A stretch of DNA of 64,000 nt from Hyphomonadaceae bacterium (GTDB taxonomy: Bacteria; Pseudomonadota; Alphaproteobacteria; Caulobacterales; Aquidulcibacteraceae): contig WRPI01000004.1 of the NCBI GenBank assembly GCA_009773395.1, positions 372,001-436,000 on the forward strand, given 5' to 3'. Both the position numbers and the translations under genes were made by a program. Of this stretch, positions 1-51,794 are shown one piece after another (position 1 is the stretch's first letter; every line of letters starts with the position of its first letter). The notes below the pieces were generated by a model that saw only the letters and a program-made list of their open reading frames with translations, did no database searches and was not told the origin of the DNA.

Positions 1-1
1 C

Positions 2-739: not shown

Positions 740-748
740 GAGGCGAAA

Positions 749-1123
749 ATGGCGGTTTTAGGTTTGGGTGTTTTCATACGGGCGCAAAATCAAGCAGCGC
801 TTGCTAATTGGTATCGCGAATTTTTGGGAATTGATATTGATACGGAATATTTCTTCAAAAATTTCGACGCGGTGGCAATGGCAAAACTGCCAAATTCGGC
901 GCAGGTTCTTTCGATAATGGCAAGTGATACCGATTATTTTGAGCCTTCAAAATCTAGTTTTATGCTCAATTTATGTGTTGATAATATTGACGAGGTGATT
1001 GCAAACCTCGAAGCCAAGGGCGTTGAAATTTTGTGGCGAGATTTGGAAAATGATTATGGCAAATTTGCCCATATTTTGGATTTCGAAAGCAATAAAATAG
1101 AACTTTGGCAGCCGCCTGAATAA
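749..1123 (+). CDS. VOC (glyoxalase/bleomycin-resistance) family protein
   Basis: A 124-residue protein of single-module VOC size. It opens with the beta strand and 'NQAALANWYREFLGI' helix typical of glyoxalase-fold proteins. It ends with 'HILDFESNKIELWQPPE', where the last acidic residue (E in IELW) normally binds the metal. VOC proteins act as metal-dependent lyases, isomerases or dioxygenases, or as drug-binding proteins; the substrate is not readable here. A GGAGG-type ribosome site sits just before the ATG. It lies 9 bases behind the hydrolase. Confidence 0.8.
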   Translation: MAVLGLGVFIRAQNQAALANWYREFLGIDIDTEYFFKNFDAVAMAKLPNSAQVLSIMASDTDYFEPSKSSFMLNLCVDNIDEVIANLEAKGVEILWRDLENDYGKFAHILDFESNKIELWQPPE

Positions 1124-1196
1124 ATTTTGGACATTTGCCCTTTGCAATTTCTTTGGTTTTGTTATAACAATTTGGAACAACTCCCAAGGAATCCCA

Positions 1197-2582: not shown

Positions 2583-2588
2583 TAAAAA

Positions 2589-3746
2589 ATGGCACAAATA
2601 GGAAATTGGAATTACCCGACAACAGTTAAATTTGGCGCAGGGCGCATAAGCGAATTGGCGGCACATTGCACGGCTTTGGGGATGAAAGCGCCACTTATTG
2701 TGACTGATAATGGGCTGGTGAACTTGCCGATGATTGTGAATGCGGTTGCGGCCTTGAAGGCGGTTGGTCTTAATGCCTCAGTATTTTCCAATGTTCGCCC
2801 CAACCCAATTGGCGCAAATGTTGACGAAGGCGTGGCATGTTTTAAGGCTGGCAAGCACGATGGCGTTATCGCATTTGGCGGCGGTTCGGCTTTGGATGTC
2901 GGCAAAGTTATTGCTTTTATGTCGGGGCAAACCAGGCCATTATGGGATTTTGAAGATATTGGCGATTGGTTTTCGCGCGCCGACGTAAATGGCATTGCGC
3001 CAATTATTGCTGTGCCGACAACTTCGGGAACAGGCTCCGAAGTTGGGCGCGCGGGGGTGATTACGGACGAAAGCAATCACACCAAGAAAATCATTTTTCA
3101 CCCCAAAATTATGCCAAGCATAACCCTATGCGACCCCGAACTTACAATTGGCTTGCCGCCTCATATTACTGCGGCAACCGGCATGGACGCGCTTTCGCAT
3201 TCACTTGAAGCCTATTGCGCTCCTGGGTTTCATCCGCAGGCGGACGGTATTGCGATTGAAGGCATAAGGCTGGTTAAGGAAAATCTTGAAGCCGCAACCC
3301 GCGAAGGCACAAATATCAGCGCCCGCGCCAATATGATGGCAGCGGCTTTAATGGGTGCAACCGCTTTCCAAAAAGGCTTGGGCGGTATGCATGCAATGGC
3401 GCACCCAATTGGCGCAGTTTTTGACGCGCATCACGGCCTGATAAATGCTGTTGTTATGCCTTATGTTTTGAAATTTAACCGCGAAGCAATCGAAGTTCGC
3501 ATTGCACGCTTGGCTGATTATTTAGGAATTGAGGGTGGCTTTGACGGCTTTTTGGCTTGGATTTTGGAAATTCGTGCAAGCCTTGGCATCAAGCATTCAT
3601 TGGCCGAAATCGGGGTTGATATTGCCAAAATTGATGAACTTGCGGCAATGGCAGTGGTAGATCCTTCCGCTGGCGGCAATCCAATTGCGCTAACGATTGA
3701 AAACATCACGCCACTATTTCGCGATGCGATTTTGGGGGAATTATAG
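2589..3746 (+). CDS. Iron-containing alcohol dehydrogenase
   Basis: A 385-residue group III (Fe-ADH) enzyme. The NAD-binding 'GGGSALDVGK' lies at about residues 96-105 and 'TTSGTGSEVGR' at about 140. The metal ligands expected for the family are visible as D and H in 'GMDALSHSLEA', H in 'AMAHPIG' and H in 'FDAHHG'. It interconverts primary alcohols (or hydroxy acids such as 4-hydroxybutyrate) and aldehydes. It follows the aldehyde dehydrogenase by 6 bases, suggesting one operon and one pathway. Its last 6 bases overlap the convergent GNAT gene. Confidence 0.93.
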   Translation: MAQIGNWNYPTTVKFGAGRISELAAHCTALGMKAPLIVTDNGLVNLPMIVNAVAALKAVGLNASVFSNVRPNPIGANVDEGVACFKAGKHDGVIAFGGGSALDVGKVIAFMSGQTRPLWDFEDIGDWFSRADVNGIAPIIAVPTTSGTGSEVGRAGVITDESNHTKKIIFHPKIMPSITLCDPELTIGLPPHITAATGMDALSHSLEAYCAPGFHPQADGIAIEGIRLVKENLEAATREGTNISARANMMAAALMGATAFQKGLGGMHAMAHPIGAVFDAHHGLINAVVMPYVLKFNREAIEVRIARLADYLGIEGGFDGFLAWILEIRASLGIKHSLAEIGVDIAKIDELAAMAVVDPSAGGNPIALTIENITPLFRDAILGEL

Positions 3747-4274
3747 GTTTTTACCCATCAAAACTATCGGCAAAGTTTCGCCATTGGGTAATGGTGTATC
3801 AATGCGCTTAATTGGCGTATATCCGTATGCCGAATAAAGCGGGATACCGGTTAGGGTTGAGCCGAGTTCAAAGCGCTTGAACCCTGCATTTGACGCAGCA
3901 TTTTCGCAGGCAAGCAATATTTTTGCGCCTATGCCGCGCCGTGCAAAATCGGGGTGCACGAAAAATGCGCGTATTCGTGCGGCATCGATTGTGGGGTCTA
4001 GGAAACCGCTTTGACTGCTTGCCAAACTATCGGCGCCAAACATTGCTTGGCGCATGGACCAGCCGCCGCAACCAACCATTTGCCCGTTCAATTCGGCAAT
4101 CAAATAAGTGCCGTCACCGATAAGATTAGTATCAATACCAAACACACTCCCCAATGCCGCCGCGCGTTGGGTGGGTGAATAATCGTCCACCTGCAAGCCA
4201 TTAACCGACAGCTCTATCAGCGCCGCAATTTGCGGAATATCGGAAGACGTGGCGGTGCGGAGGGTGGGGGGCAT
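3741..4274 (-). CDS. GNAT family N-acetyltransferase
   Basis: About 177 residues. The acetyl-CoA binding motif A is visible as 'IRAFFVHPDFARRGIGAKIL' (V/I-x-P-x-x-x-x-x-G-I/V-G), followed by the C-terminal 'AYGYTPIKRIDTPLPNG' motif B region. I place the start at the ATG at 4274; a TTG three codons upstream is also open. The acceptor substrate is unknown. The gene is convergent with the alcohol dehydrogenase and divergent from the toxin-antitoxin pair, so it is a single-gene unit. Confidence 0.85.
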   Translation of the reverse strand: MPPTLRTATSSDIPQIAALIELSVNGLQVDDYSPTQRAAALGSVFGIDTNLIGDGTYLIAELNGQMVGCGGWSMRQAMFGADSLASSQSGFLDPTIDAARIRAFFVHPDFARRGIGAKILLACENAASNAGFKRFELGSTLTGIPLYSAYGYTPIKRIDTPLPNGETLPIVLMGKNL

Positions 4275-4304
4275 TGTTTTCAAAAATTTCTTGAATTAAG
4301 TAAG

Positions 4305-4325
4305 AAAGTAAGATATTCCTACTTT
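4305..4325. promoter_or_regulatory. Possible autoregulatory operator of the AbrB/MazF-like pair
   Basis: Inverted repeat AAAGTA - 9 bases - TACTTT ending 12 bases before the antitoxin ATG, over the likely Shine-Dalgarno GGAG. Antitoxins of this type usually bind inverted repeats at their own promoters. The assignment is by position and symmetry only; short arms make it tentative. Confidence 0.35.
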
Positions 4326-4337
4326 TGGAGTCATGTT

Positions 4338-4559
4338 ATGAATGAAAACCTATCAAAACTAACCGTAAAAAGCCAGACAGTAATTCCCAAAAACATTCGT
4401 GAATATTTGGGCCTTAAAACTGGCGATAGAATAAGATATATTACCCGCAATAACCGCGTTGAAATTGAAAAAGTCAAATCCCAAACTGAAGACGACCCCT
4501 TCGCAACTTTCACCGAATGGGCTACGGATAATGACGAAGAAGCATTTGGGAAATTATGA
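4338..4559 (+). CDS. AbrB/MazE-like (SpoVT-AbrB fold) antitoxin
   Basis: A 73-residue protein. 'SKLTVKSQTVIPKNIREYLG' followed by 'LKTGDRIRYITRNNRVEI' is the swapped-hairpin AbrB DNA-binding signature (K-x-Q-x-x-I/L-P-K-x-I-R). The acidic C-terminus probably binds the toxin. The ATG at 4338 is preferred because it is preceded by TTTGGAG; an ATG at 4333 meets a stop after one codon. The toxin start overlaps this stop by 4 bases (ATGA), the usual arrangement for coupled antitoxin-toxin translation. Confidence 0.9.
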   Translation: MNENLSKLTVKSQTVIPKNIREYLGLKTGDRIRYITRNNRVEIEKVKSQTEDDPFATFTEWATDNDEEAFGKL

Positions 4560-14096: not shown

Positions 14097-14504
14097 TTAT
14101 TCCCGAAACACCCATAATTTTAGAAAAACAAAACTGGCGATTGACGTTAAAATTATCGCCAAAAATGAGCCATAAAGGTGCGGTAGTTGCCAAATATTAA
14201 ACGCCAATGCCGCAAACCCGAAATTTAGCACCAATGCAATAATTTGGGTCAGCAAATATCGCGGCAAAGCTATTTTGTGGGCAGCTTTGCTGTTGAATGC
14301 GAATTTGCGTTGCAGCCAATAAACTGGAAAAATGAAAAGCGAATAAGTTATTACGCTTACAATTGGTTTTGGCCAAAATTCTAAATAACTTAGCGCCACG
14401 ACATTCACAAATGGGTAAATAATGGCCGCCCCACCGCCAATCGCGCCAAACGCCCAAAGCGGGCGAAAAATTGCAATGATTTTTTGTTTTAAGGTCGATG
14501 GCAT
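14097..14504 (-). CDS. GtrA-like membrane protein
   Basis: 135 residues with four hydrophobic segments (about residues 15-35, 40-58, 80-100, 110-130). The pattern 'FGAIGGGAAIIYPFVNVVALSYL ... FWPKPIVSVITYSLFIFPVYWLQRKFAF' matches the GtrA family, in which the R-K-F-x-F after the second or third helix is conserved. GtrA proteins take part in translocating undecaprenyl-phosphate-linked sugars for cell-surface polysaccharide. It is the first gene of a two-gene unit with the methyltransferase. Confidence 0.8.
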   Translation of the reverse strand: MPSTLKQKIIAIFRPLWAFGAIGGGAAIIYPFVNVVALSYLEFWPKPIVSVITYSLFIFPVYWLQRKFAFNSKAAHKIALPRYLLTQIIALVLNFGFAALAFNIWQLPHLYGSFLAIILTSIASFVFLKLWVFRE

Positions 14505-14544
14505 TGGTGTGGTTCTTTAAGAAAATTGAGGTAATGGGCCAATT

Positions 14545-15027
14545 TCAAATATTTTCCAACATATATTCAGCCGCCGAAACTTTATATTCGCCGCCTTTTT
14601 CCACAAACAAATGGGTGACGATACCATCATCAACCACCATTCCATAGCGTTGTGATCTTATCCCCATGCCAAAAGCCGAGCCATCGAAATCAAGGCCAAT
14701 TGCTTTGGCAAAATTTGCGCTGCCGTCTGCCAACATTATTATTTCGCCCTTTATGCCTTGATCTTTTGCCCATGCGCCCATGACGAAAACGTCATTCACT
14801 GCAGTGCAGGCAATTGCGTCAATGCCTTTTGCTTTAAGTTCTGGCAATTTTTCAATATAGCTCGGCAAATGCCGCGCCGAGCATGTTGGCGTGAAGGCGC
14901 CTGGCAAGGCGAATAGCGCGACTTTTTTGCCACCAAATATTTCTTGGGTTGTTGCTGGCTTGGGGCCATCAATTGTCGGTATCATGAATTTAGAATCAGG
15001 CAATTTATCGCCAATTTTTATAGTCAT
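14545..15027 (-). CDS. Peroxiredoxin, Prx5/type II-like
   Basis: 160 residues of the AhpC/TSA superfamily in the atypical Prx5 group. The peroxidatic cysteine is in 'PGAFTPTCSARHLPSY' (about residue 49), and the catalytic arginine is in 'IRSQRYGMVVDDG'. The enzyme reduces hydrogen peroxide and alkyl peroxides with thiol or glutaredoxin donors. The ribosome site and ATG are ordinary. It is divergent from the yqgE-type gene, with about 150 bases between them that hold both promoters; no operator stands out there. Confidence 0.93.
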   Translation of the reverse strand: MTIKIGDKLPDSKFMIPTIDGPKPATTQEIFGGKKVALFALPGAFTPTCSARHLPSYIEKLPELKAKGIDAIACTAVNDVFVMGAWAKDQGIKGEIIMLADGSANFAKAIGLDFDGSAFGMGIRSQRYGMVVDDGIVTHLFVEKGGEYKVSAAEYMLENI

Positions 15028-15177
15028 CTTTTTTCCTCAATTGCGCGCAACAATATGTTCGGCGGTGTTTTCATAAAGTAATATAGTGTGGTTTGGCCAA
15101 AACTAAACCCATGCTCTTGCCAAATTTACGAAATAGGTGAAGATGCCAAATTGAGGCGCAATTTAAGGACGTGAAAA

Positions 15178-15738
15178 TTGTCTGACTTTTTTACAGGCCG
15201 CATTTTGATTGCTGCACCCAATATGGAGGATCCAAGGTTCAAGCATGCGATTATTTTGGTGTGTGACCATGACGAAGAACATGCATTGGGCATTGTCATA
15301 AATCGAATTATCCCCAATTTAACTTTGCCGCATTTTTTTGAACAAATCGGAATTGAAAACGCGCAATTTGCGCCAAAGCAACCGATTCTTGAAGGTGGGC
15401 CCTGCCAGCAGGAACGCGGCTTTGTTGTGCATTCAGATGAATGGAATGAAAGCAGCACAATAAGCATTGGTTTTGGCCTAGCGCTTACTGTCACCAAGGA
15501 AATATTCAGCGCCGTTGTTGACGGCAAAACACCATGCAAAATGATTGTCGCGCTCGGTTATGCCGGCTGGGGCCCGGGGCAACTGGAAAGCGAAATTGTG
15601 CAAAATGCTTGGATTGTCGGTGATGCTAGTTCTGAGCTCATTTTCAATACCACCGATATTTCGGCAAAATGGCAGCAAAGTTTGCAAGCAATGGGAATTG
15701 ACCCAAGGCGCCTTTCACCTTTTGCCGGCAATGCGTGA
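15178..15738 (+). CDS. YqgE/AlgH family protein
   Basis: 186 residues. 'FFTGRILIAAPNMEDPRFKHAIILVCDHDEEHALGIVIN' contains the family's F-L/I-A-x-P-x-M-x-D-P-x-F motif, and 'GYAGWGPGQLESEI' is the second conserved block. The function is not settled, although members affect alginate and other regulation. The start is a TTG at 15178 with AAGGA 9 bases upstream; an in-frame stop just before it excludes an earlier start, and the next ATG would cut off the conserved N-terminus. It overlaps nothing and lies 15 bases before the N6-methyltransferase. Confidence 0.9.
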   Translation: MSDFFTGRILIAAPNMEDPRFKHAIILVCDHDEEHALGIVINRIIPNLTLPHFFEQIGIENAQFAPKQPILEGGPCQQERGFVVHSDEWNESSTISIGFGLALTVTKEIFSAVVDGKTPCKMIVALGYAGWGPGQLESEIVQNAWIVGDASSELIFNTTDISAKWQQSLQAMGIDPRRLSPFAGNA

Positions 15739-15753
15739 TTTAGCCTAAAGACG

Positions 15754-17370
15754 ATGCGCGACGAAAACATAAGTTACGACGAAATTATCCATGAACTAAA
15801 TATATCCAAGGCGACTTTGCGCAATTGGGTGAAATTAGGCCATCTTAAAACAACCAGTAAAAATAATATTGAGCGCGCGAGTTTTGAAAAATTTCGAGGC
15901 GAAGTCATCGGTAATGGCAAGCTTGTTGCGCGGGCCAATAAAACCCAACAATCACGTTCCTTGGTTTCTCAATTCAAACTGCCCGCATGGGAGGTTTTGA
16001 TTGCGCTGTCTTCGGACGCTCTCACCCAATTGGCACTACAATATGAAGCAGAACTTGCTCATAACCAGCGCAATATTAAAGGCGTTTATTACACACCGCA
16101 GAGCATAGCACGCGAAACGCTGGCGGGGTTAGGCGAACTTGGTGGAAAAACCTTCCTTGATCCTTGTTGCGGCATTGGCAATTTTTTGCTTGCCGCAATT
16201 GATGCTGGGTTTTCGCCAGCCGATATTTATGGCTTTGACATTGATACGGACGCGCTTTTGATTGCAAAAGCACGGGTTTTCAAGAAATCTGGGCTTATTT
16301 TGGAAAATATTCAGTATGTTGATTATTTGCAAAGCTCGCCGCCTATTCCTGCCAATCCCGATTATATTTTCACCAATCCGCCTTGGGGTGTCAAAATGCC
16401 AGCCAAGGAAAAGGCGCGGCTTGCCAAAAAATATGGCCTGCCAAAAAGCGCTGATTCAAGCGCGATTTTTGCGGCTGCGATTTTGGAGCATCTGAATGAA
16501 AATGGCACGGCGGGGCTTTTATTGCCTGAGGCATTTTTCAATATTGCGGCCTATCGCGAAGTGCGAAGGAAGATACTCGGCAATAAAATCGTTGCAATCA
16601 AAGATTATGGACGCGCTTTCGCTGGCCTCCTAACCAAAGCGCAAGCGATTGTTTTTTCCAAACAAGCGCCAGAAAAAGACAACCAAATTACGTGCGATTT
16701 TGACGGCGTAAACTACAGGCGAAACCAAAACGATTTTGCCAATAATCCCAATCAAATTTTTAATTTTTATTGCAATGAAAAAGATGTCAAAATTATCAAG
16801 CATTTATTTGGGCAGCCCCACAAAACTTTGGCCAGCACTGCCAAATGGGCCTTGGGAATTGTTACTGGTGACAATAAAACCCATATTTTGAACGCACCAA
16901 TTGAGGGCGCAGTGCCGATTTATCGTGGTAATGATATTACGCCAAATGGCATCATTGAGCCCTCAAATTGGATTGAGCCGAACTTCGAAAAGCTTCAACA
17001 AACAGCGCCAGTTGCGATTTACAACTCGAACGAAAAAATCGCATACCGCTTCATTTCAAGCAATCTTTGCTTTGGGTATGATGATGCCAAAAGGTTATTT
17101 TTGAACAGCGCGAACATACTTATTCCCGATCCAAAACTTGGAATAAGCACAGCAAATTTAACGAAACTACTAAATACAAAATTACTGGGTTGGATATTTG
17201 CCAAAATCTTCAATACGCCAAAAATCTTGCGCGGCGATTTGGAATCATTGCCTCTGTTTATAGAACAATTTGTGGTGGCAGGATTTGAAGAAAATGAGGC
17301 GTTTTATGATGCTTTGGGGGTGATTATCGATGGGAATGGTGGGTATGAAATAGCTGCAATTTTTAATTAA
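15754..17370 (+). CDS. N6-adenine DNA methyltransferase with N-terminal HTH
   Basis: 538 residues. An N-terminal helix-turn-helix is visible ('YDEIIHELNISKATLRNWVKLGHLK', MerR/excisionase-like, residues 7-30). The N6-MTase core follows: 'GVYYTPQSIARE', motif I 'FLDPCCGIGNFLLAAI' (about residue 130) and catalytic motif IV 'FTNPPWGV' (about 208). The C-terminal region resembles TaqI-like specificity domains. It methylates adenine in DNA. No matching endonuclease is adjacent, so it is either orphan or carries recognition itself. It shares a direction with yqgE and lies next to the cytosine R-M genes, marking an acquired region. Confidence 0.88.
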   Translation: MRDENISYDEIIHELNISKATLRNWVKLGHLKTTSKNNIERASFEKFRGEVIGNGKLVARANKTQQSRSLVSQFKLPAWEVLIALSSDALTQLALQYEAELAHNQRNIKGVYYTPQSIARETLAGLGELGGKTFLDPCCGIGNFLLAAIDAGFSPADIYGFDIDTDALLIAKARVFKKSGLILENIQYVDYLQSSPPIPANPDYIFTNPPWGVKMPAKEKARLAKKYGLPKSADSSAIFAAAILEHLNENGTAGLLLPEAFFNIAAYREVRRKILGNKIVAIKDYGRAFAGLLTKAQAIVFSKQAPEKDNQITCDFDGVNYRRNQNDFANNPNQIFNFYCNEKDVKIIKHLFGQPHKTLASTAKWALGIVTGDNKTHILNAPIEGAVPIYRGNDITPNGIIEPSNWIEPNFEKLQQTAPVAIYNSNEKIAYRFISSNLCFGYDDAKRLFLNSANILIPDPKLGISTANLTKLLNTKLLGWIFAKIFNTPKILRGDLESLPLFIEQFVVAGFEENEAFYDALGVIIDGNGGYEIAAIFN

Positions 17371-17440
17371 AATTATGGACAAAAAATACCTATAATGGTA
17401 GAATCATAACATTGAATTTTCGTATTTTTGGAGCTCTAAA

Positions 17441-17692
17441 ATGTCCATTATTGTTGATATTGCCGACCGAATGTATGACTATACAGATGAAGAAGTCGCC
17501 GCGGAAGCAGTTGAGGCTTTTCAGTATGATTACAACTTAAGTGACAATGAAGTGTTTGAAATTTGGGAAAGTAATAAAGGCTCATTATTTTTGGAACTAC
17601 GAGATCGTATAACCGACGCTGTTGATGCAAATGGCAGCTTCAAGCGTGCGCAAGAAACGGTTCCTTGTGGTGTGAGTTTGGTTGTTAGTTAG
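17441..17692 (+). CDS. Small acidic protein of unknown function
   Basis: 83 residues, strongly acidic in the middle ('DYTDEEVAAEAVEAFQYDYN'), with a GGAG ribosome site 7 bases before the ATG. I do not recognise it. It lies between the N6-methyltransferase and the cytosine methyltransferase, on the same strand and in the AT-rich segment. It could be an accessory to either, or a DNA-mimic-type antirestriction factor given its charge; the latter is speculation from composition. Confidence 0.5.
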   Translation: MSIIVDIADRMYDYTDEEVAAEAVEAFQYDYNLSDNEVFEIWESNKGSLFLELRDRITDAVDANGSFKRAQETVPCGVSLVVS

Positions 17693-17868
17693 CCATTTTG
17701 CGCCATTGCTGTTTTGTTGGTATTGTCAAAAAGGGCGAGTTGCAGTTATGTTCTTGGCAAAGATTGCAATGGAAAAATAAAGGTGGCGGCAAAATCTATT
17801 CGCAAAGAGAAGTAATAAATTGTTTTTCTTTCGATTTTTGTTGCTGCAGTAGTCAGGCCTAGATTAAA

Positions 17869-18777
17869 ATGCTTAAAGTTGCTTCGTTTTTTGCTGGGAT
17901 TGGCGGGTTTGATATTGGCCTTGAACGAGTTGGCATGAAGGTAGTGTTTCAATGCGAAGTAAATAATTTTTGCCAACAAGTACTTAAGCAACATTGGCCT
18001 AACAATATATTGCATGGCGACATAAAAACGTTAGAGTCAAGATTGATTCCAGACGATGTCGATTTGTGGTGTGGAGGTTTCCCATGTCAGGACTTGTCAT
18101 TAGCAAATCAAGGAAAAAGGAAGGGGCTCGAAGGTGAACGCAGCGGCTTATTTAGTAAATATGCAGAGCTCATCGCTCAAAGAAAACCCAGATGGGTCAT
18201 CATTGAAAATGTCCCAGGCCTTCTCAATAGCAATGAAGGAAAAGACTTCCAGTTTCTCGTCCAAACGCTGGATGAACTCGGGTATGGTGTTTCGTGGCGA
18301 GTATTTGACGCAAAATACTTTGGAACACCCCAAAGACGTCGACGTGTGTTTATTGTCGCAAGTTTTGGAACAATCTGCTCCGCTGACGTACTTTTTGAAG
18401 ACGGATCATTTGATGTCGCTCCTCGTGCGGGCATCGGCAAAAAAGACATCTTTGCCCGAGAAACTGGAAAAAGCTATCAAGACCCAAATCTCTACATTAT
18501 TCAACATGCCGCTGTTGGAAGAAAACCCGAAGCTGGCCCTCAGTCAAAAGGATATAGACACGACGGTGAGGCCTTTACACTTGACAGCCGAGGGAGCGCC
18601 GATGTTATTTGTCAGACGACTAATGCCATCAGAGTGCGAGATACTACAAGGGTTTCCAAAAGATTGGACTCAAACAGGTATCGCGCAATAGGTAACGCCG
18701 TATGTGTAAATATTGTTGAATGGATTGGTAAAAGAATTGTTGAAATGGAAAATTCAACCAACGTCCCATCAATATAA
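17869..18777 (+). CDS. C5-cytosine DNA methyltransferase (Dcm family) with compensating frameshifts
   Basis: 302 residues. Motif I is 'ASFFAGIGGFDIGLERVG'; motif IV is 'GGFPCQDLSLANQG' with the catalytic PCQ cysteine (about residue 71); motif VI is 'WVIIENVPGLL'; motif VIII is 'GTPQRRRRVFIVAS'. Motif X, 'RYRAIGNAVCVNIVEWIGKRI', ends it. Between them, frame 1 lacks the conserved motif IX. It occurs instead in frame 2 at 18602-18675 as 'VRRLMPSECEILQGFPKDWT'. One shift near 18605-18612 and a return near 18670-18675 restore the frame. Activity is doubtful unless these are sequence errors. It converges on the NotI-like endonuclease gene (9-base overlap). Confidence 0.9.
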   Translation: MLKVASFFAGIGGFDIGLERVGMKVVFQCEVNNFCQQVLKQHWPNNILHGDIKTLESRLIPDDVDLWCGGFPCQDLSLANQGKRKGLEGERSGLFSKYAELIAQRKPRWVIIENVPGLLNSNEGKDFQFLVQTLDELGYGVSWRVFDAKYFGTPQRRRRVFIVASFGTICSADVLFEDGSFDVAPRAGIGKKDIFARETGKSYQDPNLYIIQHAAVGRKPEAGPQSKGYRHDGEAFTLDSRGSADVICQTTNAIRVRDTTRVSKRLDSNRYRAIGNAVCVNIVEWIGKRIVEMENSTNVPSI

Positions 18778-40954: not shown

Positions 40955-43339
40955 TTAGGTTCTTAAAGTCGCACCGATTTTCGTGGCGGCGCTAATTATC
41001 TTGGTGCTCAAAGCCTCAATTTCAACATCGCTTAGGGTTTGCAATTTTGGTGCGATAGTGACTTCCAATGCCAATGAAGTCATGCTGTCGGGAACTCCGT
41101 GTCCTTGATAATTATCAAAAACCTGCACATTGCTGATAAGGTTCTTATCAACATTCGCAATCACTCTAACCAATTCCGCAGCAGCATTTTCGCGTGGCAA
41201 AAGGAAGGCAAAATCGCGGCTTAGCGGCATGAATGGCGATAGCTCGAGTTTCGCGCGCGCCTTTGTCGGTTTTTGCTTGGCTTGCGGCAGGTTGTCGACG
41301 AAAATTTCAAATCCAAAAACTGCTTGTTTTACACCAAGCTTTTCACAAACCCGTGGATGAATTTGCCCATATTCAGCAGCCAATATTTTTGACCCCATTT
41401 TAAGCGACCCAGCGCGGCCCGGATGCCAATGCGTGCTGGCGCCATTTTGCATCATAAGTCCGCCTGTTGGTATGCCCATTGCCGCCAGAACCGCCATTAA
41501 ATCGGCTTGAACACTATAAATATCGGCTTCTTTTTTGCCGCTAAAATGGCGCTGCGAACCCGTTACAATGCCTGCAATAACGGTTTTTTGGCCATCTGGT
41601 TCGTCGCTTAAATAAATTGGCGCGGCTTCGAACAAAGCAACATTGGTTAAGCCACGATTGATATTGCGGCCCGCTGCCGAAATCAAATTTATCAAACCAG
41701 ATGGCCGCATTATTGCCAATTCATCGGAAATCGGATTGGCGAGCGCGAGGCTATTATCTTGGCTATTGGCACCAAAAAGCACCGCTGCTTCTTTGGAAAC
41801 AAAACTCCAGGTCACTGCTTCATTGTAACCAAGTGATGCCAAAGCGCGGCGTGCAATATTAAACCGCGATTTGTCCGAGCTTATCAATTGCCGATTTTTT
41901 GGCGCGCTAAGTGTGGCAAGCGGCAATTTATCGAAACCATAAATCCGCGCAATATCTTCGACAATATCAGCGGCCAATTTGCAATCACCGCGCCATGAAG
42001 GCACGCCAATATCGAGATTGCCATTGCCCGAATCCTTGGCGGTAAAACCAAGTTTGCCAAGTATTTCGCCTATTTGCGAAGCGTTCAAGTCAATACCAGT
42101 AAGGCGTTTAAGTTCGGTAATCGGAAAAATGATGTTTTGTGGCAAAGACGGTGCTGCACTCGCAATTTCCAAGTTTGATGCCTCACCACCGCATAATTCA
42201 AGCACCATTTGAGTTGCAAATTCAATCCCGCCAATTACAAAGTCAGGGTCAACGCCGCGCTCAAAACGGTATTTAGCATCAGATTGAATGCCAGTCGCCC
42301 GTCCAGTTTGGAAAATTCCCAAAGCCTCGAAAAATGCGCATTCAATGAAAACATCGGTTGTGGCTTCGTCGCAACCAGTTGAAGCGCCACCCAAAACTCC
42401 GCCCAAGCCAATTGCGCCGCTATCGTCGGTTATGGCGCACATGCTGGTTGAAACTTCGTGGACATTGCCGTCCAAACCTTCGAATGTTTCGCCCACTTTG
42501 CCATAACGCACGCAAATATTGCCTTGCAGTTTCTTGGCATCATAAACGTGAAGTGGGCGCGCTCTATCATATGAAATGAAATTTGTAATATCGACTAATG
42601 CATTGATTGGGCGAAGGCCAATTGCCAATAATCTGTTCTGCAACCATTTGGGCGATGGGCCATTTTTGACACCGCGAACCAAGCGCCCCGCAAATTGCGG
42701 GCAGGCATCCTTGGCCTCAATTGTCACTTTAATCGGGCAATCAAATGCGCCTTTATGCGTAATAATATTTCTATCTTGAAATTCACCGAGACTGCTTGCT
42801 GCCAATTCACGCGCTATCGAATTCACGCCAAGCCAATCGGGGCGGTTGGGGGTTACTTCAAAATCAATGACAGCGTCATTCAGGCCTAGTGCTTCTGCGG
42901 CAGGCGTGCCAATTTCAAGCTCATTTGGCAATTCAATTATGCCCGAACTATCGCCCTCAATGCAAAGCTCCTCATACGAACACATCATGCCGTTGGAAAC
43001 CACGCCGCGCACTGGTTTTGCCACCAATTCCATACCATTAGACGGGATACAAGTGCCAAGCGGCGCGAAAATCGTGGTGAGACCAGCGCGGGCATTTGGC
43101 GCACCGCAGACAATTTCAAGTTTGCCAAGATTGGTTTCCACTTGGCAAACCCGCAATTTATCGGCATTGGGATGCTGTTCGGCTTTTATGATTTTGGCAA
43201 CTGAAAACGCGCCAAGTTTTGCCGCTGGGTCAATAACTTCTTCAACCTCAAGGCCAGCCATAGTCATGGCTTCGACAATTTGCGCAAGGCTCGCATCGGT
43301 TTTGAGATAATCTTTAAGCCAATTTATTGTGAATTTCAT
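40955..43339 (-). CDS. pheT: Phenylalanyl-tRNA synthetase beta subunit
   Basis: 794 residues with the expected domain order: N-terminal tRNA-binding fold ('[21 protein letters not shown]'), B3/B4 domain ('[21 protein letters not shown]'), B5 ('[21 protein letters not shown]'), class II-like B6-B7 core and the C-terminal anticodon-binding FDX-ACB ('[17 protein letters not shown]'). With PheS it charges tRNA-Phe and its B3/B4 domain edits mischarged Tyr. It overlaps pheS by 4 bases (ATGA). Confidence 0.98.
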
Positions 43340-44415
43340 CGGCTTAATCCTGTTGCTAGATTCGGCGATACAAACGGTTCAAACCCAAAATGTTCAAGCC
43401 AGCGCACATCAGAATTAAACATATCGCGCAAATCTGGTATGCCATATTTCAACATTGCTAACCTATCAATCCCCAATCCAAATGCGAAACCTTGATGAAT
43501 TTCAGGGTCAATCCCACATTGGCGCAGAACATTGGGGTGAACCATGCCGCAACCCAAAATCTCGAGCCAATCATCGCCAGTGCCGATTTTCAACTCGCGC
43601 CCCGAACGATCACAGCGCACATCGACTTCGGCACTTGGCTCTGTGAACGGAAAATGATGCGGGCGAAAACGAACTGCGGCGGTCTCCACTTCAAAAAAGC
43701 GCGCCAAAAATTCCATTAACACGCCTTTCAAATGCCCCATATGCACGCCTTCTTCAATCACTAAACCTTCGATTTGGTGGAACATTGGCGTATGGGTTTG
43801 ATCGCTATCACAACGATATGTCCGCCCCGGCGCAACAATCCGAATTGGCGGCTTTTCATTCAACATAGTGCGGATTTGCACCGGCGAAGTATGAGTGCGC
43901 AGCAGCTTTGCCACGCCGTCCGAATTTTTTTCAAAAAAGAAAGTATCATGCATATCACGCGCGGGGTGTTTTTCGGGGAAGTTTAGCGCGGTGAAATTGT
44001 GAAAATCGTCCTCAATATCGGGGCCTTCCTTGACGGTGAAACCCATATCGGCGAAAATCACTGCAACTTCTTCAAACACTTGCATGATGGGGTGAATTTT
44101 TCCCATAAAACGCGGGAAAGCGGGCAGGGTGGCATCAATGCGTTCAGCCAAGAGCCGCGCATCAAGCGCCGCATCGGCTAAAATCACCTTTTTGGCATTA
44201 ATCGCATCATTCAAAGCATTTTTAAGGCCATTGATTTTGGGGCCAAAAACCTGCCTATCCTCAGGCGACATTGCACCCATGCCTTTTAGAAGCTCAGAGA
44301 CCGAACCTTTTTTTCCAAGCGCGGATACCCGCAATTCTTCCAACGCCGCTTCGGTTTGTGCGTCGGCGAGTTGGGCAAAAAGAGCGGCTTCTAATTTATC
44401 TATATCAATTGTCAT
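43336..44415 (-). CDS. pheS: Phenylalanyl-tRNA synthetase alpha subunit
   Basis: 359 residues. The coiled-coil N-terminus (residues 1-85) is followed by the catalytic core: motif 2 ('[10 protein letters not shown] ... [21 protein letters not shown]') and motif 3 ('[15 protein letters not shown]'). It activates phenylalanine; the active enzyme is alpha2beta2 with PheT. It is preceded by rplT, with the terminator of rplT between them, so pheST has its own promoter. Confidence 0.98.
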
Positions 44416-45274: not shown

Positions 45275-45634
45275 TTACGCTTTGACTTCAACAATATTTT
45301 CAAAACCACCCCATATCATGCGTTGGCCGGACATAATTTGATTCATATTATTGTTCGCCATACGTGGATCCGCCATTAATTTGCCCCAAGCTGCATCGCG
45401 GGTGGCTTTGTCGGGCCATTCAATCCAGGAAAATGCAATGGTCTCACCTTTTTCGGCTAAGGTCGCAGTATAAAAATCGTTTATCTTGCCTCTTGAAATG
45501 TCATTCGCCCAGTTTTCCATGACGCGAATAGCCCCAAATTCAACAAATAACTTCGCCATAGCCGAAGCCTTTTCGACATAAGCTGCTTTATTTCCTGCCG
45601 GAATTGGAATGATAGTTCCATCAATATAAGCCAT
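45275..45634 (-). CDS. DUF1428 family protein
   Basis: 119 residues from the ATG at 45634 with AAGGGG upstream. 'YIDGTIIPIPAGNKAAYVEKA' and 'GETIAFSWIEWPDKATRDAAW' match DUF1428 (dimeric alpha-beta barrel fold, substrate unknown). It is a lone gene between rpmI and the LuxR-type gene. Confidence 0.88.
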   Translation of the reverse strand: MAYIDGTIIPIPAGNKAAYVEKASAMAKLFVEFGAIRVMENWANDISRGKINDFYTATLAEKGETIAFSWIEWPDKATRDAAWGKLMADPRMANNNMNQIMSGQRMIWGGFENIVEVKA

Positions 45635-45777
45635 TATTTGCCCCTTTTTCAAGGAAAACATTGTGGCAGCAAAATCGTTTTTTGTCCAATGTTTATTGCA
45701 AATAATTATCATTACCTACCAAGGTAAGGAGGAGCGGAAAAACAAAAATGTCCAAGTTTTCTTAAACATCCTTTGCG

Positions 45778-46506
45778 CTAAATTATCCGCATATTCACAA
45801 GTTTCGCCACCGCCTGGGTACGGTTGGTTGCGCCGAGTTTGCGCCTCGCATTATCAATATGAAAGCGTGCGGTTTCGCTTGAAATGCCAAGTATAACCGA
45901 AATTTCCCAATCAGTTTTCCCTTCCGCTACAAACGCCATGCAATCACGTTCGCGTGAAGTGAGGAATACGGCGTTGGGCGTGGGAAGTTCACCCATGCCC
46001 ATTAATTTTTCGGTTAAAATCAGACCAGCCATTTGAAACGCAAAAACTTCGTCACACGAAAATTCGTTTCGTTCAAACCCAAGGTGAATAGATGCAATGG
46101 CATTGCGGGCGCCATAAGAAGTCGCGCAAATGGCATCGCCAATTTTTGCTTGTGAAAAAGCTTCCCAATAATTGCCATATTTCTTTTCTTTGTGGGGTGC
46201 GAAATCACTAAATAAATATCTTGTGCGCCCTTCTTTTATTGGTTTGAGCAACGGGTTTTGCTCAAAACAAACATAGTTGAAGGCGTCTGATTGTGGCCAT
46301 TGTGGCGATATTGCAATTCTGGCTATAACCCCGCCAGCCGCAAAATGGCTTTGCGAAGTCAGAGTGGTAGCGGGTCTTAAATAATGCCGAGTTTGCAAAT
46401 AAGTTGCACCATATGGTTGCAAATTTGTGAAAAAATCATTGCTAGCTTGGTTCGCGCTATTAGCAGCGAGGGCAGGTTCGGCAAGTTGCATTATCCGCGA
46501 CAGCAT
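45778..46506 (-). CDS. LuxR-family regulator with autoinducer-binding-like domain
   Basis: 242 residues from the ATG at 46506 with AAGGG 7 bases upstream; the frame continues to a TTG, 5 codons earlier. The C-terminal GerE-type HTH is clear ('LTSRERDCMAFVAEGKTDWEISVILGISSETARFHIDNARRKLGA'). The N-terminal about 165 residues fit an autoinducer-binding domain in size and in the 'YGNYWEAFSQA' region. No luxI synthase is in the window, so it is a solo. It stands divergent from the four-gene envelope operon and could control it. Confidence 0.88.
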   Translation of the reverse strand: MLSRIMQLAEPALAANSANQASNDFFTNLQPYGATYLQTRHYLRPATTLTSQSHFAAGGVIARIAISPQWPQSDAFNYVCFEQNPLLKPIKEGRTRYLFSDFAPHKEKKYGNYWEAFSQAKIGDAICATSYGARNAIASIHLGFERNEFSCDEVFAFQMAGLILTEKLMGMGELPTPNAVFLTSRERDCMAFVAEGKTDWEISVILGISSETARFHIDNARRKLGATNRTQAVAKLVNMRII

Positions 46507-46683
46507 CGAATTTCCCTTCAAACATTGACCAACAATATACTAAACCCGCCGAACTTCAAGTTTTTCCGATAAATAAATTCGAAAATGTCAAGCTCACCTT
46601 TTCGGGAGTTATGATTTGGCCGCAAATTAGATAAAAATAATCAGGTGTTCGTATAGATTTCGCAATGGACTGAGGCTTTAACA

Positions 46684-47577
46684 ATGCTGTATTTTCAAAA
46701 ACTTGACTTCTGGCTAATTGTGATATTGTGCGGGTTTGGGCTGATAATTTCTTCGCCCATTATGGCTAGGGAAAACGCGGCAATTGCTTCGCAAAGCTCA
46801 CAAAGCGAAGCGCAAAGTCACCGAAGAATGCTTAAAATGGCCGCTGGTGAATCCCTAAGTGCTTTTGGTGTTGAAATTCACGCGCAAACGCCAACAATTG
46901 CGATTTTGTCGCTTTCTACCGAAATGGTTACGATTGCCGTGGTTTCGGGGCAATTGGCAGTTGGTGCTACGCGTGCGCGCGCAGGTGAGGCATTGGTCAC
47001 GCCAATTGATGGAAGCCAAACCCATTTATTCGGCTATGACGCTGAAAGGCTTGCAGCTTCACTGCCACCTGCTTGGGCACAAGAAATGACCGCGCCACTT
47101 CAACAATTGGCTCTGCGGCAAAAGAGATTGAAATTTTGGGGTTTAATTGAGCCAGTAAGAATTAATGCTGCCTCGCCGTCGGCTCCAAATGTCGAAATCG
47201 TCCGCCAATCTTATTTGGGCAATGACACTATAATCGGGTTACGCCGCGCCGCACATGGTAGGCCCCAAGCCTTGGCTGGACTTACTGTCAAAAAATTCGC
47301 CGAAAGCCTGGCTGCGGGCGATGCCATAAGTGTCGCACATTTGTTGGATCCAAAACCATTTACCGATAGTGGCGCGGACGAAGCAAGCTGGCAAGACGCG
47401 CGGCTTGGCTTTGCACAAAATTTGGTCAAGGACACTGGGTTAAGGCGCGCTATGGCTGCATTACCCGACGCAAACGCGACTTCGGGAAACAGTTTTGAAG
47501 CAGGGGGCGCGTATCGGATTCAATTGGTTATGCGCGACCGCGCTATGTTTGTAAGCGCAGTGGAGCCAATTCAATGA
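46684..47577 (+). CDS. Envelope operon gene 1: exported protein, FecR-like segment
   Basis: 297 residues. A hydrophobic N-terminus (about residues 10-27) acts as signal or anchor. 'MVTIAVVSGQLAVGATRARAGEALVTP' resembles the beta-rich repeat of FecR-type proteins (V-x-V-x-x-G-x-V...A-G-E). The C-terminal half is not recognised. It is first in a four-gene unit with 4-base (ATGA) overlaps, and lies divergent from the LuxR gene. Function unknown; periplasmic by inference. Confidence 0.65.
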   Translation: MLYFQKLDFWLIVILCGFGLIISSPIMARENAAIASQSSQSEAQSHRRMLKMAAGESLSAFGVEIHAQTPTIAILSLSTEMVTIAVVSGQLAVGATRARAGEALVTPIDGSQTHLFGYDAERLAASLPPAWAQEMTAPLQQLALRQKRLKFWGLIEPVRINAASPSAPNVEIVRQSYLGNDTIIGLRRAAHGRPQALAGLTVKKFAESLAAGDAISVAHLLDPKPFTDSGADEASWQDARLGFAQNLVKDTGLRRAMAALPDANATSGNSFEAGGAYRIQLVMRDRAMFVSAVEPIQ

Positions 47578-48443
47578 AAAAGTTCATATTAATCGGCTTG
47601 CTCGCCGTTGCAAATCCAGCGCTCGCAACGCCAGCCGCCACAGGTGGTTTCACAGCTGGCGACCTTGCCACCGCCGCGCAATCCTTACCCAATGCCGATT
47701 TGCAACAAGCGCGAATTCTTATGGAAGAAACCGAAAGCCTGCGCCTGGCAATTGCTTATGATGCCGGAGCAGGTGTTGGAATACGTGGGCCAATTGAACA
47801 AATATTATTGGCAGATGCTTTGGGTATGAGCGATGCTGCAACCGATTTGCGCGCCAAATGGTTTATGGCTGGTGCGATTGCCCAGACGCCGATTGGCACA
47901 AATACCATGCTCTACAACCCACTTGCGCGCGGAACTTTGGTTTTAGGTTGGAGCAAATCGCCCGAAGGAAACTGGCAAGTTGCTTCAGCCAATTTGCTTT
48001 CCAACCCGCCTTCGCAATGGCAGCAAGAGGCCGAAAAGCCGTATCTTGCGGCGCTGGTTGCTGACTATGCCACTAATATCGCAACTATCGGCACCCAATC
48101 TGGCGGCTATGCGGCAATGGAAGCAAATCGATATATTGCTGGCATGGCGGTTTGGCTGCGTGACCCATCACATAGGCAGGTCACGACAGAAGTTCGTGAA
48201 ATTATTGTTGCCGGCCGTGCAGCAAATTATGGCGCAAATGCAATTGATATGATGCCGACCAATGCCCGCGCAACTTATTGGCCAATTGCGACATTTGAGC
48301 GGAGTGAAGGTGGCCATTCCTTGATTTACGGCTCGGCGCTTTATCCGCAAATACTAATCGCCGCCGATTTTGATGCCAGCGCCCGACCGAAACTCGCGCG
48401 ATTGACCTTGGTAAATCTAGGCAATGCAGGAGCAGCCCAATGA
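47574..48443 (+). CDS. Envelope operon gene 2: exported protein of unknown function
   Basis: 289 residues with a signal peptide ending near 'ANPALATPAA'. It is Ala-rich and mostly helical in pattern. I do not recognise it. It overlaps gene 1 and gene 3 by 4 bases each, so translation is coupled. The C-terminus 'LIYGSALYPQILIAADFDASARPKLARL' has a beta-rich appearance. Confidence 0.6.
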   Translation: MKKFILIGLLAVANPALATPAATGGFTAGDLATAAQSLPNADLQQARILMEETESLRLAIAYDAGAGVGIRGPIEQILLADALGMSDAATDLRAKWFMAGAIAQTPIGTNTMLYNPLARGTLVLGWSKSPEGNWQVASANLLSNPPSQWQQEAEKPYLAALVADYATNIATIGTQSGGYAAMEANRYIAGMAVWLRDPSHRQVTTEVREIIVAGRAANYGANAIDMMPTNARATYWPIATFERSEGGHSLIYGSALYPQILIAADFDASARPKLARLTLVNLGNAGAAQ

Positions 48444-50893
48444 AAAAGCAAATTTTAGCCAGCGTTGCGGTTTTTGCGTTAGTGCAAGTTTTCACCAATT
48501 CCGCGTTGGCGCAACCTACGCCACAACCGCCAAGCCGTCAGGAGGTTTTGGATCAACTCGCTGCCCGTGGGCGGGAAGCGCAAGCTGCCGGTGAACGTCA
48601 GCAAGCACAGAGGCAAAGTCAGCTAGATGCGCAAGAGGCACAAGGGCGCGCTATGTTTGAGCGTGATATTCAAGTCGGTAATATGACGAGGGAGCAACAG
48701 GCCGAATTAAGGCAATATGCCAATGAGCGCATGGGCGAGGCTATGCAAGGTCGCGGTGACGTTTTGCGAGATGCGGCACGCCGTAACGCCGAAAGATTTG
48801 TCGAGCGTGCTGGTCAACATGTAGACAGTGGTCGCGATGCCCTTAATCCCGCCAATGCCGATAATGTGTCAAATCGTGATTTCGCTGAGGCCACGGCACG
48901 GGGCGCAGTAAATCTTGGTTCTGATGCGATTCAAGCCCACCGCGATATGCTGCGTGACTTGCGGCCTACGATTGAAGCCACTGCACCAGTAATGGCAGAT
49001 ATCATGCGCGAACGCGAACGAATAATTAACAGCAATCCTAATGTTTCGCAGGCTGAACGCGCAAATGTGAGACGCGATACTGAACGCGCAACCAGGTCGA
49101 TTTCCCATGTTGGGCAACGGCTTGATGAAGCTGATTTCCGAATGCGCACCGATGAACAAAGATTTCGTGAGCGGGAAGAACAAATTGCGCGCGATGTCGA
49201 AAGAATGAGTGCAGGCCAACCCACTGGCCCCACAAGAACAACTGTTCGGCCAAGATCGCCAGTGCCGCCACGCACACCAAGCGCACCGCCACCGCCAACC
49301 ATTTCACCACCGCCGCCGCCGCCAAGCCAAAGCGCAGCAGCACCAAGAGCGCCAGTTCGTCGTGGCACAATCCCGGGGCAGGGTAATAGCAATGCTGGCT
49401 TGCTTGTCCCGAGGTCGCAGGGCGGGACTGGGCCCGAAACCGCGCAATCTACGGCGCAAGCAAGCGCCAATTCCCAGTCACGCGCTCGCGCAGAAGCGCA
49501 AGCGCAAGCCGAACGCAATGCCGCAAGATTGGAACGCAATCGCCAAGCCGCGCAAGACCGCGCAGATCGCGATAATGCACCAAATGGTGGCGCGACCAAT
49601 GCCGCCTTGAGCGCCAGCTCTTCGGTGTCCTCTGCGGCGGCTGAAGCGAATGATCGTTACGAATTTTTGAGGCGAATGAATAGAATGGGTCGGGTTGGCG
49701 CCAGTCAAACTGGCGGGTCTGGTGAAGGTTCAGGCGGCGATCTTGGTGGCTTGCCGTCACTTGTGGCGTGGCAAGAATTACCCGAAGTGCTTACAGACGA
49801 TGATATTCAAAATATTTTGGATACGCTCGAATACCAGCGCATCCTTAATGAACAAAGGCGCCTAACCAATGCCGCTCAAACCCGCGCTGCCCAAGACGAT
49901 CGTTGGAACGCGAATGTCCGCGAGAGGTTTGCCAGCAACGAAGTGTTTGATTTAATGCACGACCATGGGCCATTGCAGGTGCTTGAATTAGAGCCGATTT
50001 ACCGCAATTATAATCCGCTCAATACAATACCACCTGCGCAATCCTTATCGTCGGCAGGCAATTCGCTTTCAACTTTTGGCTTTCCATATCCCGATACGAG
50101 GACGGGCATTTTGTATGGATTTCATGATTACCGCGACCCTGCGGTTCAATCTTTGAATGATGTTTTATACGGACGATTTTCGATCAACAGCCCGTTTAAT
50201 GGTCGCGATCGCCGAACCATAGCGCAAATCGCAAATGATAGTTACAATGCGGGAGGATTTGACGTTCAGCGCGACCAAAATGGGCGTTGGGGTGATGAAA
50301 CTGGTGGTTATCTCGCGGCATCATTATTTTCCCAAGGCGGTTATTTGCATGACACAAAGGTCAACGGCCTTGGTGGGCTTGATGCGCTTTTGGCGCAACC
50401 ATTCAATGTGATTTTGACTTGGGGCGCAAATTCCTATGACCTTGATTTACATATGACTGGGCCGTTGGGAGAAGCAACCAGCGATCGCTTTCATATTTAT
50501 TATGCGGCGGTGGGGAACCTTGCCTCGCAACCTTTTGCGCAACTGATTAAGGATTGTATTTGCAATTCGGGCAGCGAAGTTATCTTAACCTCCGCGCTTA
50601 ATCGTGGCGGCGTATATCGGGTTTCGGTGTTCAATTTTGGCGACCAAGCCGAAAATAGCAATAATCTCTCCAATGCTTCCGAAGCGAGAATTCAAATTGT
50701 CCGTGGCGGCACGACCCAAAGCGTCGGCAATGGCACAACAATTATTGGGGGCAGGGTCATTTTAACCACCACTGTTCCAAATGGCCAAAATGGTAATACT
50801 TGGGTGGCAGTCGAAATTAACCCCAAAAATGGCCGCATCACCGTGCCACGAGCCATAATGCAAAGCGCGGGAGGTTCAAGTGGTGTTCGCTAA
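48440..50893 (+). CDS. Envelope operon gene 3: 817-residue exported coiled-coil protein with beta domain
   Basis: Signal peptide to about residue 24, then an Arg/Gln/Ala/Glu-rich coiled coil (to about 260), a Pro-rich linker ('PPPPTISPPPPPPSQ'), a Ser/Ala low-complexity helix (about 320-400), and a folded C-terminal region. The latter includes 'ILTWGANSYDLDLHMTGP', a DxDLH-type motif known in some bacterial surface beta-sandwich domains, and a CIC pair. It probably spans or leaves the envelope. Codon overlaps couple it to genes 2 and 4. Confidence 0.65.
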   Translation: MKKQILASVAVFALVQVFTNSALAQPTPQPPSRQEVLDQLAARGREAQAAGERQQAQRQSQLDAQEAQGRAMFERDIQVGNMTREQQAELRQYANERMGEAMQGRGDVLRDAARRNAERFVERAGQHVDSGRDALNPANADNVSNRDFAEATARGAVNLGSDAIQAHRDMLRDLRPTIEATAPVMADIMRERERIINSNPNVSQAERANVRRDTERATRSISHVGQRLDEADFRMRTDEQRFREREEQIARDVERMSAGQPTGPTRTTVRPRSPVPPRTPSAPPPPTISPPPPPPSQSAAAPRAPVRRGTIPGQGNSNAGLLVPRSQGGTGPETAQSTAQASANSQSRARAEAQAQAERNAARLERNRQAAQDRADRDNAPNGGATNAALSASSSVSSAAAEANDRYEFLRRMNRMGRVGASQTGGSGEGSGGDLGGLPSLVAWQELPEVLTDDDIQNILDTLEYQRILNEQRRLTNAAQTRAAQDDRWNANVRERFASNEVFDLMHDHGPLQVLELEPIYRNYNPLNTIPPAQSLSSAGNSLSTFGFPYPDTRTGILYGFHDYRDPAVQSLNDVLYGRFSINSPFNGRDRRTIAQIANDSYNAGGFDVQRDQNGRWGDETGGYLAASLFSQGGYLHDTKVNGLGGLDALLAQPFNVILTWGANSYDLDLHMTGPLGEATSDRFHIYYAAVGNLASQPFAQLIKDCICNSGSEVILTSALNRGGVYRVSVFNFGDQAENSNNLSNASEARIQIVRGGTTQSVGNGTTIIGGRVILTTTVPNGQNGNTWVAVEINPKNGRITVPRAIMQSAGGSSGVR

Positions 50894-51794
50894 AGCGTTT
50901 TCAATTTTCATTTTGCTTAGCTTAGGCCTTGCCGGCAATGCGTTAGCGCAAGCCGCGCCTGGAAATAATATTGATGACAGGGTGCGGCAGCAATCACGAA
51001 TATTGAGTGAGCGTGAACGCGAAGAAGCAATGATGACTGGTGATACTGATATTTTACTTACAAGGCGAACGAAACTGTTTAACCTTCACGGATTATTCAG
51101 CGCTGATAATACATCAAATGCTTTCCTAACGCCTTTTGACGCAAGAACTGATGTTTTCGGCCAGGCCCAAATCGGGCTGAGTTTTGGCACCAAAATAGCA
51201 AATAAAATTGATTTGTTCGCAGATTTAAGCGCCAATACAGTGCATTATTCAAATTATGCCGAACTTGATTATAGTGCTTTAACTGGCGTGATTGGCGCAA
51301 GAACCAACGTCGGGCCAGTTTCACTAAATGCGACTTATCAACCCGCAGTGGTTTTTGATCGTGAATTTCGCAAACGGCAATTAACTTCGCACCGCACCCG
51401 CATTAGCGCGGCACTTCCTTTTAATATCAAAAGACTAAATATTGAGCCATCAATAAGCATTGAGCGCACGCTATCCAACCCGACAGATTATCGGGCATGG
51501 TCAGGTGGCGCAGGCGTTACATTTAGCGCGCCAATTTCACGAAAAATCCCATTATTTGCGTTTGCAAGCGTCAATTATGAGAAACGCGATTTTGACAGCT
51601 ATTTTCCAGATTTAGTCGGTGTTCGCCGCATTGATGATAATTGGTCAGGAAATGTCGGCCTAGTTTGGCAATTGCGCAACGGCGGAGAAGTCCGCGCCAG
51701 CTATAATTACGGGCGCAACTCATCAACCTCGGATGTAAATATTTACCGCGCAAAAACCGGCACGATTGGGATAAGCGCGGCGTTTAGGTTTTAA
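50880..51794 (+). CDS. Envelope operon gene 4: outer-membrane beta-barrel
   Basis: 304 residues. GTG start (50880 or 50883) within the end of gene 3. A signal peptide ends near 'GNALAQ'; a polar helix with 'DRVRQQSRILSEREREE' follows. The rest is a run of alternating amphipathic strands from about residue 65 to the end, with the C-terminal residue F typical of BAM-inserted barrels. It is the likely outer-membrane component of the four-gene unit, for export or anchoring of gene 3 product (inference). Confidence 0.75.
   Translation: MVFAKAFSIFILLSLGLAGNALAQAAPGNNIDDRVRQQSRILSEREREEAMMTGDTDILLTRRTKLFNLHGLFSADNTSNAFLTPFDARTDVFGQAQIGLSFGTKIANKIDLFADLSANTVHYSNYAELDYSALTGVIGARTNVGPVSLNATYQPAVVFDREFRKRQLTSHRTRISAALPFNIKRLNIEPSISIERTLSNPTDYRAWSGGAGVTFSAPISRKIPLFAFASVNYEKRDFDSYFPDLVGVRRIDDNWSGNVGLVWQLRNGGEVRASYNYGRNSSTSDVNIYRAKTGTIGISAAFRF

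Follow-up and report, generated by a model that had tools for sequence, protein, structure and literature searches.

In type V secretion, a passenger is either fused to an outer-membrane barrel or carried as a two-partner secretion (TPS) domain paired with a POTRA barrel. The parts that define type I and type II secretion are ATP-binding cassette and membrane fusion proteins (ABC/MFP) or a secretin. On the regulatory side, extracytoplasmic function (ECF) sigma factors of the ECF43 group have been linked to Hanks-type kinases and are activated by phosphorylation (PMC13147305, PMC8999054), in the studied case on a Thr in region sigma2.2 within a QTTA-type motif (PMC13147305). The accessible portions of these papers describe EcfP-PknT of Vibrio parahaemolyticus and EcfK-PknS of Xanthomonas citri, and the outputs named there are a type VI secretion system (T6SS) and polymyxin resistance (PMC13147305, PMC8999054). 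Here, we describe a set of four genes in a 64,000-nucleotide stretch of DNA (the window, meaning the whole stretch analysed) from a Hyphomonadaceae bacterium (GCA_009773395.1, contig WRPI01000004.1, positions 372,001-436,000 of the forward strand). Our results support an undescribed operon of exported proteins that ends in an outer-membrane barrel. The gene set is rare, turning up in a handful of alphaproteobacteria with a large middle protein that is not constant, and may represent an undescribed surface-display module.

The four-gene operon and its relatives

The operon comprises the following features, the module loci being the window and five other loci introduced below.

46684..47577, plus strand: gene 1, an exported protein of 297 residues (signal-like start by eye), with a homologue in all six module loci and no known family
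47574..48443, plus strand: gene 2, an exported protein of 289 residues, present in the three same-type loci, in two copies in L009, with no known family
48440..50893, plus strand: gene 3, a large exported passenger-like protein of 817 residues, its N-terminal part divergent, charged/Ala-rich and Pro-rich
50372..50890, plus strand: C-terminal domain of gene 3 (the 'LTWG..DLDLHMTGP' domain), residues 645-817, 62-73% identical to two same-type relatives
50880..51794, plus strand: gene 4, an outer-membrane beta-barrel of 304 residues with 12 long strands (model), weakly EpsL-like, with a homologue in all six module loci

The open reading frame (ORF) coordinates bear out the overlaps of 4 to 14 bases claimed in an earlier note on this DNA: genes 1 and 2 share 4 bases, genes 2 and 3 another 4, and genes 3 and 4 share 14. 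The same note had held all four proteins to be exported, and each N-terminus indeed reads by eye as signal-peptide-like. The four-gene operon is real, and its arrangement is more than chance because the gene order recurs in two other genomes, a Novosphingobium metagenome-assembled genome (L008) and another assembled from Hyphomonadaceae (L009; L005 and the G257 stretch are the same letters). L009 carries the whole operon with an extra copy of gene 2 and overlaps of 4, 4, 4 and 11 bases; in L008, genes 1/2 and 2/3 overlap by 4 bases and genes 3/4 lie 15 bases apart. Identity of the window proteins to those of L008 and L009, respectively, is 49 and 35% for gene 1, 43 and 28% for gene 2 (20% for the second L009 copy) and 49 and 33% for gene 4.

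The set is sparsely distributed. When genome contigs were scanned, a single-protein query returned nothing and an alignment query returned L008 and L009; two of 398 genomes of the order, our own included, matched the C-terminal half of gene 3. A gene 1 profile found five of the 398 (own included), and a six-row profile recovered the same five among 343 genomes, a sample that overlaps the 398 and is not an independent count. Gene 4 was searched with a single sequence against 61 genomes, a search that distant barrels would escape.

Three further loci (L034, L035 and L036) represent a variant in which the gene between gene 1 and the barrel encodes 828-1186 residues. Profile comparison with hhalign, using shallow profiles of three to four rows, identified the gene 1 proteins of the variant and the window as homologous (99.3%), and likewise the barrels (98.7%). 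By the same shallow profiles, relatedness of the variant middle gene to gene 3 (0.1%) or gene 2 (0.2%) was not detected, a negative that carries less weight than the two positive comparisons. The large middle proteins of the two types are built alike in one respect, the C-terminal 170-220 residues being 62-85% identical within a type and the remainder 19-33%. For the gene 3 type these values are 62-73% over the last 172 residues and 24-33% elsewhere, and for the variant type 65-85% over the last 220 residues and 19-29% elsewhere. The genes are thus conserved together, with the full order kept in L008 and L009 and gene 1 plus the barrel kept in L034-L036.

Since gene 1 and the barrel are kept while the middle protein changes, the apparatus appears fixed and the middle protein its variable load. 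The reading that we favour, although we would place it somewhat below an even chance, is that the operon forms an outer-membrane display module in which a 12-strand barrel and a small exported partner would serve variable passengers. The products of genes 1-4 would cross the inner membrane by the Sec route, as their signal-like N-termini suggest, and gene 4 would fold into the modelled barrel. Gene 3 would be the passenger, a long charged, proline-rich stalk that leads into the conserved C-terminal domain, and with gene 4 it would either be retained at the outer membrane or cross it; genes 1 and 2 may act as periplasmic partners of this assembly. The coupled export or surface-anchoring complex proposed earlier fits a conserved gene 1 and barrel with swapped passengers, the export or anchoring step itself being the predicted part of that proposal.

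Barrel, passenger-like protein and C-terminal domain

Gene 4 had been called an outer-membrane barrel, and a model built from three sequences agrees, showing 12 long strands from residue 67 onwards and a further strand of only 3 residues (mean predicted local distance difference test score, pLDDT, 66). Foldseek matched this model to generic barrels (autotransporter domains, CymA, OmpG and others; template modelling scores about 0.2-0.6), matches that support gene 4 as a predicted barrel and nothing narrower. The TonB-dependent receptor family PF00593 scored 19 bits against gene 4, under its gathering score of 27.

The weak resemblance of gene 4 to EpsL raises the alternative that it exports polysaccharide and that the other proteins are accessory. 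Scores against TIGR03014 were 34.6 bits in the window, 24.2 in L009 and 35.6 in L034, all far under the cut-off of 275, and polysaccharide synthesis genes were not seen on inspection of the ORFs inside the six operons, nor did scans of operon proteins give any. At L036, positions 1-4388, a few kilobases upstream of the operon at 9813, hold ORFs resembling by eye glycosyltransferase and sugar-nucleotide genes; sugar-related flanking genes were noticed at this locus only. We consider polysaccharide export quite improbable.

Neither gene 1 nor gene 2 matched Pfam at E 1, which leaves gene 2 the unknown protein that the earlier note took it for. The description of gene 1 as 'FecR-like', in turn, was not supported: Pfam FecR (PF04773) was absent from the four of six gene 1 proteins scanned (window, L009, L008 and L034), and hhalign against FecR domains of relatives gave 0.2% with shallow profiles.

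Gene 3 had been described as a coiled-coil, Pro-linker and beta-domain protein of 817 residues. The length, a Pro-rich stretch (24% Pro in residues 256-345) and a distinct C-terminal domain after it were all confirmed; in the claimed coiled-coil part, what is seen is a stretch rich in A/E/Q/R/K (51% of residues 27-255). The whole protein has one Pfam match, below threshold (13 versus 27 bits). The cysteines of a DCIC motif in the C-terminal domain are invariant across the three same-type loci. For ten members of this domain, no NCBIfam family matched at E 1, and four Pfam families each matched a single member, none convincingly (best E 0.038, PPC). A search of solved structures with the domain profile returned, at best, E 0.1 to a CBM35-like chain named esterase D, a match given no weight in identifying the domain.

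By profile search, the domain turned up in four of 385 genomes of the class and in five of 398 of the phylum (own included in each), the phylum matches covering part of the domain only. In all six alphaproteobacterial proteins found (window, L008, L009, L014, L015 and L016) it stands at or near the C-terminus, and in five of them a barrel gene, recognized by eye or model, adjoins the domain-bearing gene. The sixth is L015, whose contig ends within the upstream flank; downstream, no barrel was recognized. In L014, L015 and L016, the domain is C-terminal in proteins that carry a true FecR domain, and the divergent neighbour in L014 and L016 reads by eye as a TPR-barrel (TPR matches sub-threshold in both) whose relatedness to gene 4 was not detected (hhalign 0.6%). 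The TPR-barrel beside the L016 fusion (L016:673-2118) scores above the Pfam DUF2860 cut-off (26.6 versus 22.9 bits). Proteins from other classes of the phylum (L017, L018, L019 and L020) carry a partial domain within large proteins with parts that look by eye Ig-like or trypsin-like.

These features bear on a second alternative, in which gene 3 forms, with its partners, a structural tether that spans the periplasm from the cell wall to a porin-like barrel and has no export role. A long A/E/Q/R/K-rich stretch with a Pro-rich linker, and a C-terminal domain that has barrels of more than one family as neighbours, are what such a tether might show. No peptidoglycan-binding family was matched in Pfam, however, and no lipobox was seen by eye; the middle protein is swapped in relatives, which is unusual for a plain tether, and other classes have the domain in proteins of which some parts look, by eye, trypsin-like and Ig-like. 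A tether is an unlikely account of the operon.

Regulatory genes and genomic setting

Two further features complete the locus on its upstream side.

45778..46521, minus strand: LuxR-type gene with a GerE helix-turn-helix, starting at ATG 46506 or TTG 46521, divergent from the operon
46522..46683, no strand: intergenic region common to the LuxR-type gene and the operon

The LuxR-type protein carries a GerE domain (E 8.8e-17) and no second Pfam family above cut-off, the Pfam autoinducer-binding domain not being detected. Inside 46522-46683, a search for a sigma70-type site found none. As a candidate LuxR operator, a single 9-nucleotide dyad at 46580-46604 was rejected, as many being found in 241 of 1000 shuffles, which is not above chance. 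A gene for a DUF1428 protein (45275-45712) lies beside the LuxR-type gene.

The earlier note named the LuxR-type gene as the nearest regulator. It is the divergent neighbour in the window, but the five other loci have ECF sigma factor and Ser/Thr kinase genes instead. These two genes adjoin each other and stand within one gene of the operon in all five. All five sigma factors score 147 to 172 bits against TIGR02999, whose cut-off is 126; the kinase was recognized by Pfam in four loci and by translation only in L035. In the genome of the window, the best TIGR02999 score is 33.1 bits, and the five sigma factors and four of the kinases had no match in the window, kinases elsewhere in the genome not having been searched for. 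By eye, a Thr stands in sigma2.2 in two of the five sigma factors (QPTE in L008, QPTD in L009), and Gly takes the expected Thr position in the other three (STGD in L034, L035 and L036); because of this division we call them ECF43-like, and not proven ECF43. Beyond the sigma factor gene of L008, ORFs at 14478-18528 resemble usher, chaperone and pilin genes by eye and look like a chaperone-usher pilus cluster.

The constant presence of the sigma factor and kinase genes within one gene of the operon suggests a third alternative, that the module is an envelope sensor of damage or of a ligand, feeding the kinase and sigma factor of relatives in a manner loosely like Fec-type signalling. The most hydrophobic 19-residue stretch follows the kinase domain in three of the four kinases examined, as a transmembrane segment might, and lies inside the kinase domain in the fourth. 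Against a sensor, TonB-dependent receptor and FecR families fall below cut-off in the window proteins (19 versus 27 bits for the TonB barrel), and the genome of the window keeps the operon yet has no TIGR02999 sigma factor above cut-off (best 33 versus 126 bits). We regard a sensory role as improbable.

The setting of the operon was compared with four congeners. Searches for gene 1, the C-terminal half of gene 3 and gene 4 gave no match in them, gene 2 not being part of the search, and they yielded no full-length homologue of the LuxR-type gene, whose matches there cover the C-terminal half only (best 32-34% identity). In congener G001, rpmI, rplT and pheS adjoin a homologue of the ORF at 51791, followed by one further ORF and ccoN, and 12 kb at this site gave no match to DUF1428, the LuxR-type gene or genes 1-4. 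This empty site comes from G001 alone because the stretch in G002 and G004 lacks the pheS side and ccoN was not found in G003. As G001 has neither the LuxR-type gene nor the operon at this site and the congener matches are confined to the C-terminal half, the LuxR-type gene probably belongs to the same accessory block as the operon; such membership does not prove regulation of the operon by LuxR.

Two distant variant loci (L034:14347-19843 and L035:14387-18987) also have gene 1 approximately 4-5 kb from pheT-pheS, but on the pheT side; in the window (40955-44415), it is found on the side of rpmI. This may reflect a chromosomal neighbourhood in common or a hotspot for insertion.

Several origins for the block were considered and rejected. 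GC content at third codon positions is 0.40-0.46 in genes 1-4 and 0.38-0.48 in their neighbours; since the former lies within the neighbours' range, the raised GC content of gene 3 does not point to a recent transfer, and recent foreign origin by composition was discarded. PHROG matches were weak only (best E 0.089), which disposed of a phage origin, and the C-terminal half of gene 3 and gene 4 had no match in 72,556 plasmid records. Membership of a defence system was likewise dismissed, the four proteins of the window and two from L034 having no PADLOC match at E 0.01; the L009 kinase matches many PADLOC kinase models, which we read as generic.

The position of the two regulatory genes suggests that, in relatives, the set is probably activated by the ECF sigma factor, which would respond to the envelope, together with its Ser/Thr kinase. 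The window locus lacks this pair, and the LuxR-type gene in the same insert would be the likeliest replacement regulator. A fuller proposal, which we put forward as a possibility clearly less probable than the display module itself, is an undescribed display or secretion system with interchangeable passengers, in which the conserved 12-strand barrel and small exported partner flank a large protein that is constant in its C-terminal domain and variable elsewhere. Such a system would usually be under a kinase-activated sigma factor and would, in the window strain, have changed to a LuxR-type regulator.

Evaluation and comparison with described systems

Several points weigh against a display module. 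The localisation, export and binding of its proteins are predicted, not observed; the gene 4 model is moderate (pLDDT 66) with generic barrels as its PDB matches, and the model of the gene 3 C-terminal half failed (pLDDT 32) and was not used. The shallow hhalign profiles (two to four rows) make 'not homologous' a weak statement for the middle genes, and LuxR control of the operon is deduced from position only. The C-terminal domain occurs beside an unrelated TPR-barrel family and mid-protein in other classes, and so is not necessarily a signal for docking to gene 4.

If the display module is real, it offers a testable pair of barrel and passenger that belongs to no assigned secretion type. It would also be a candidate output of kinase-linked ECF sigma factors, few outputs of which are named in the accessible portions of the cited papers. 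That the window and the five other loci differ in regulator would then be a natural case of rewiring. Should co-conservation alone hold, gene 1, gene 2 and the gene 3 C-terminal domain are still defined, unnamed families for annotation. Among the literature matches listed for the sigma factor and kinase pair, a partial coverage of the literature, no title pointed to the operon.

The earlier view that the operon belongs to no named system agrees with genes that are kept together and with Pfam and NCBIfam scans free of type I, II and V secretion parts. ABC/MFP and secretin families were absent among the four window proteins. With regard to type V secretion, autotransporter barrels are among the generic Foldseek matches of gene 4; gene 4 is, however, a separate gene of 304 residues, and autotransporter, TPS and POTRA families were absent from the scans. 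For type XI secretion, the Slam family was not listed for the barrels scanned with Pfam, and export of a partner protein through the barrel is predicted at most. The EpsL and BBP2 barrels (TIGR03014 and PF10082) weakly match the C-terminal barrel part, with sub-threshold scores and an operon that lacks exosortase and polysaccharide genes.

Fec-type signalling (FecA-FecR-FecI) resembles the relatives in the proximity of a barrel, an exported partner and an ECF sigma factor gene, but differs in that FecR and TonB-receptor families fall below cut-off here, a kinase is found instead and a passenger gene is present. The FecR fusions beside a TPR-barrel (L014 and L016) share the gene 3 C-terminal domain (41-44% identity) and a neighbouring barrel-like gene; unlike the operon, they combine a true FecR domain in a one-gene fusion, a divergent order and a barrel not detectably related to gene 4, and no ECF sigma factor or kinase gene was recognized by eye in their ORF lists. 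Set beside the ECF43/Hanks-type kinase loci, the operon is not among the outputs, T6SS and polymyxin resistance, given in the accessible parts of those publications; the window locus lacks both regulators, and three of the five sigma factors here have Gly (by eye) in place of the Thr phosphorylated in the case described there. What the five other loci have in common with the ECF43 loci is the pair itself, a TIGR02999 sigma factor gene and a Ser/Thr kinase gene placed by the operon.

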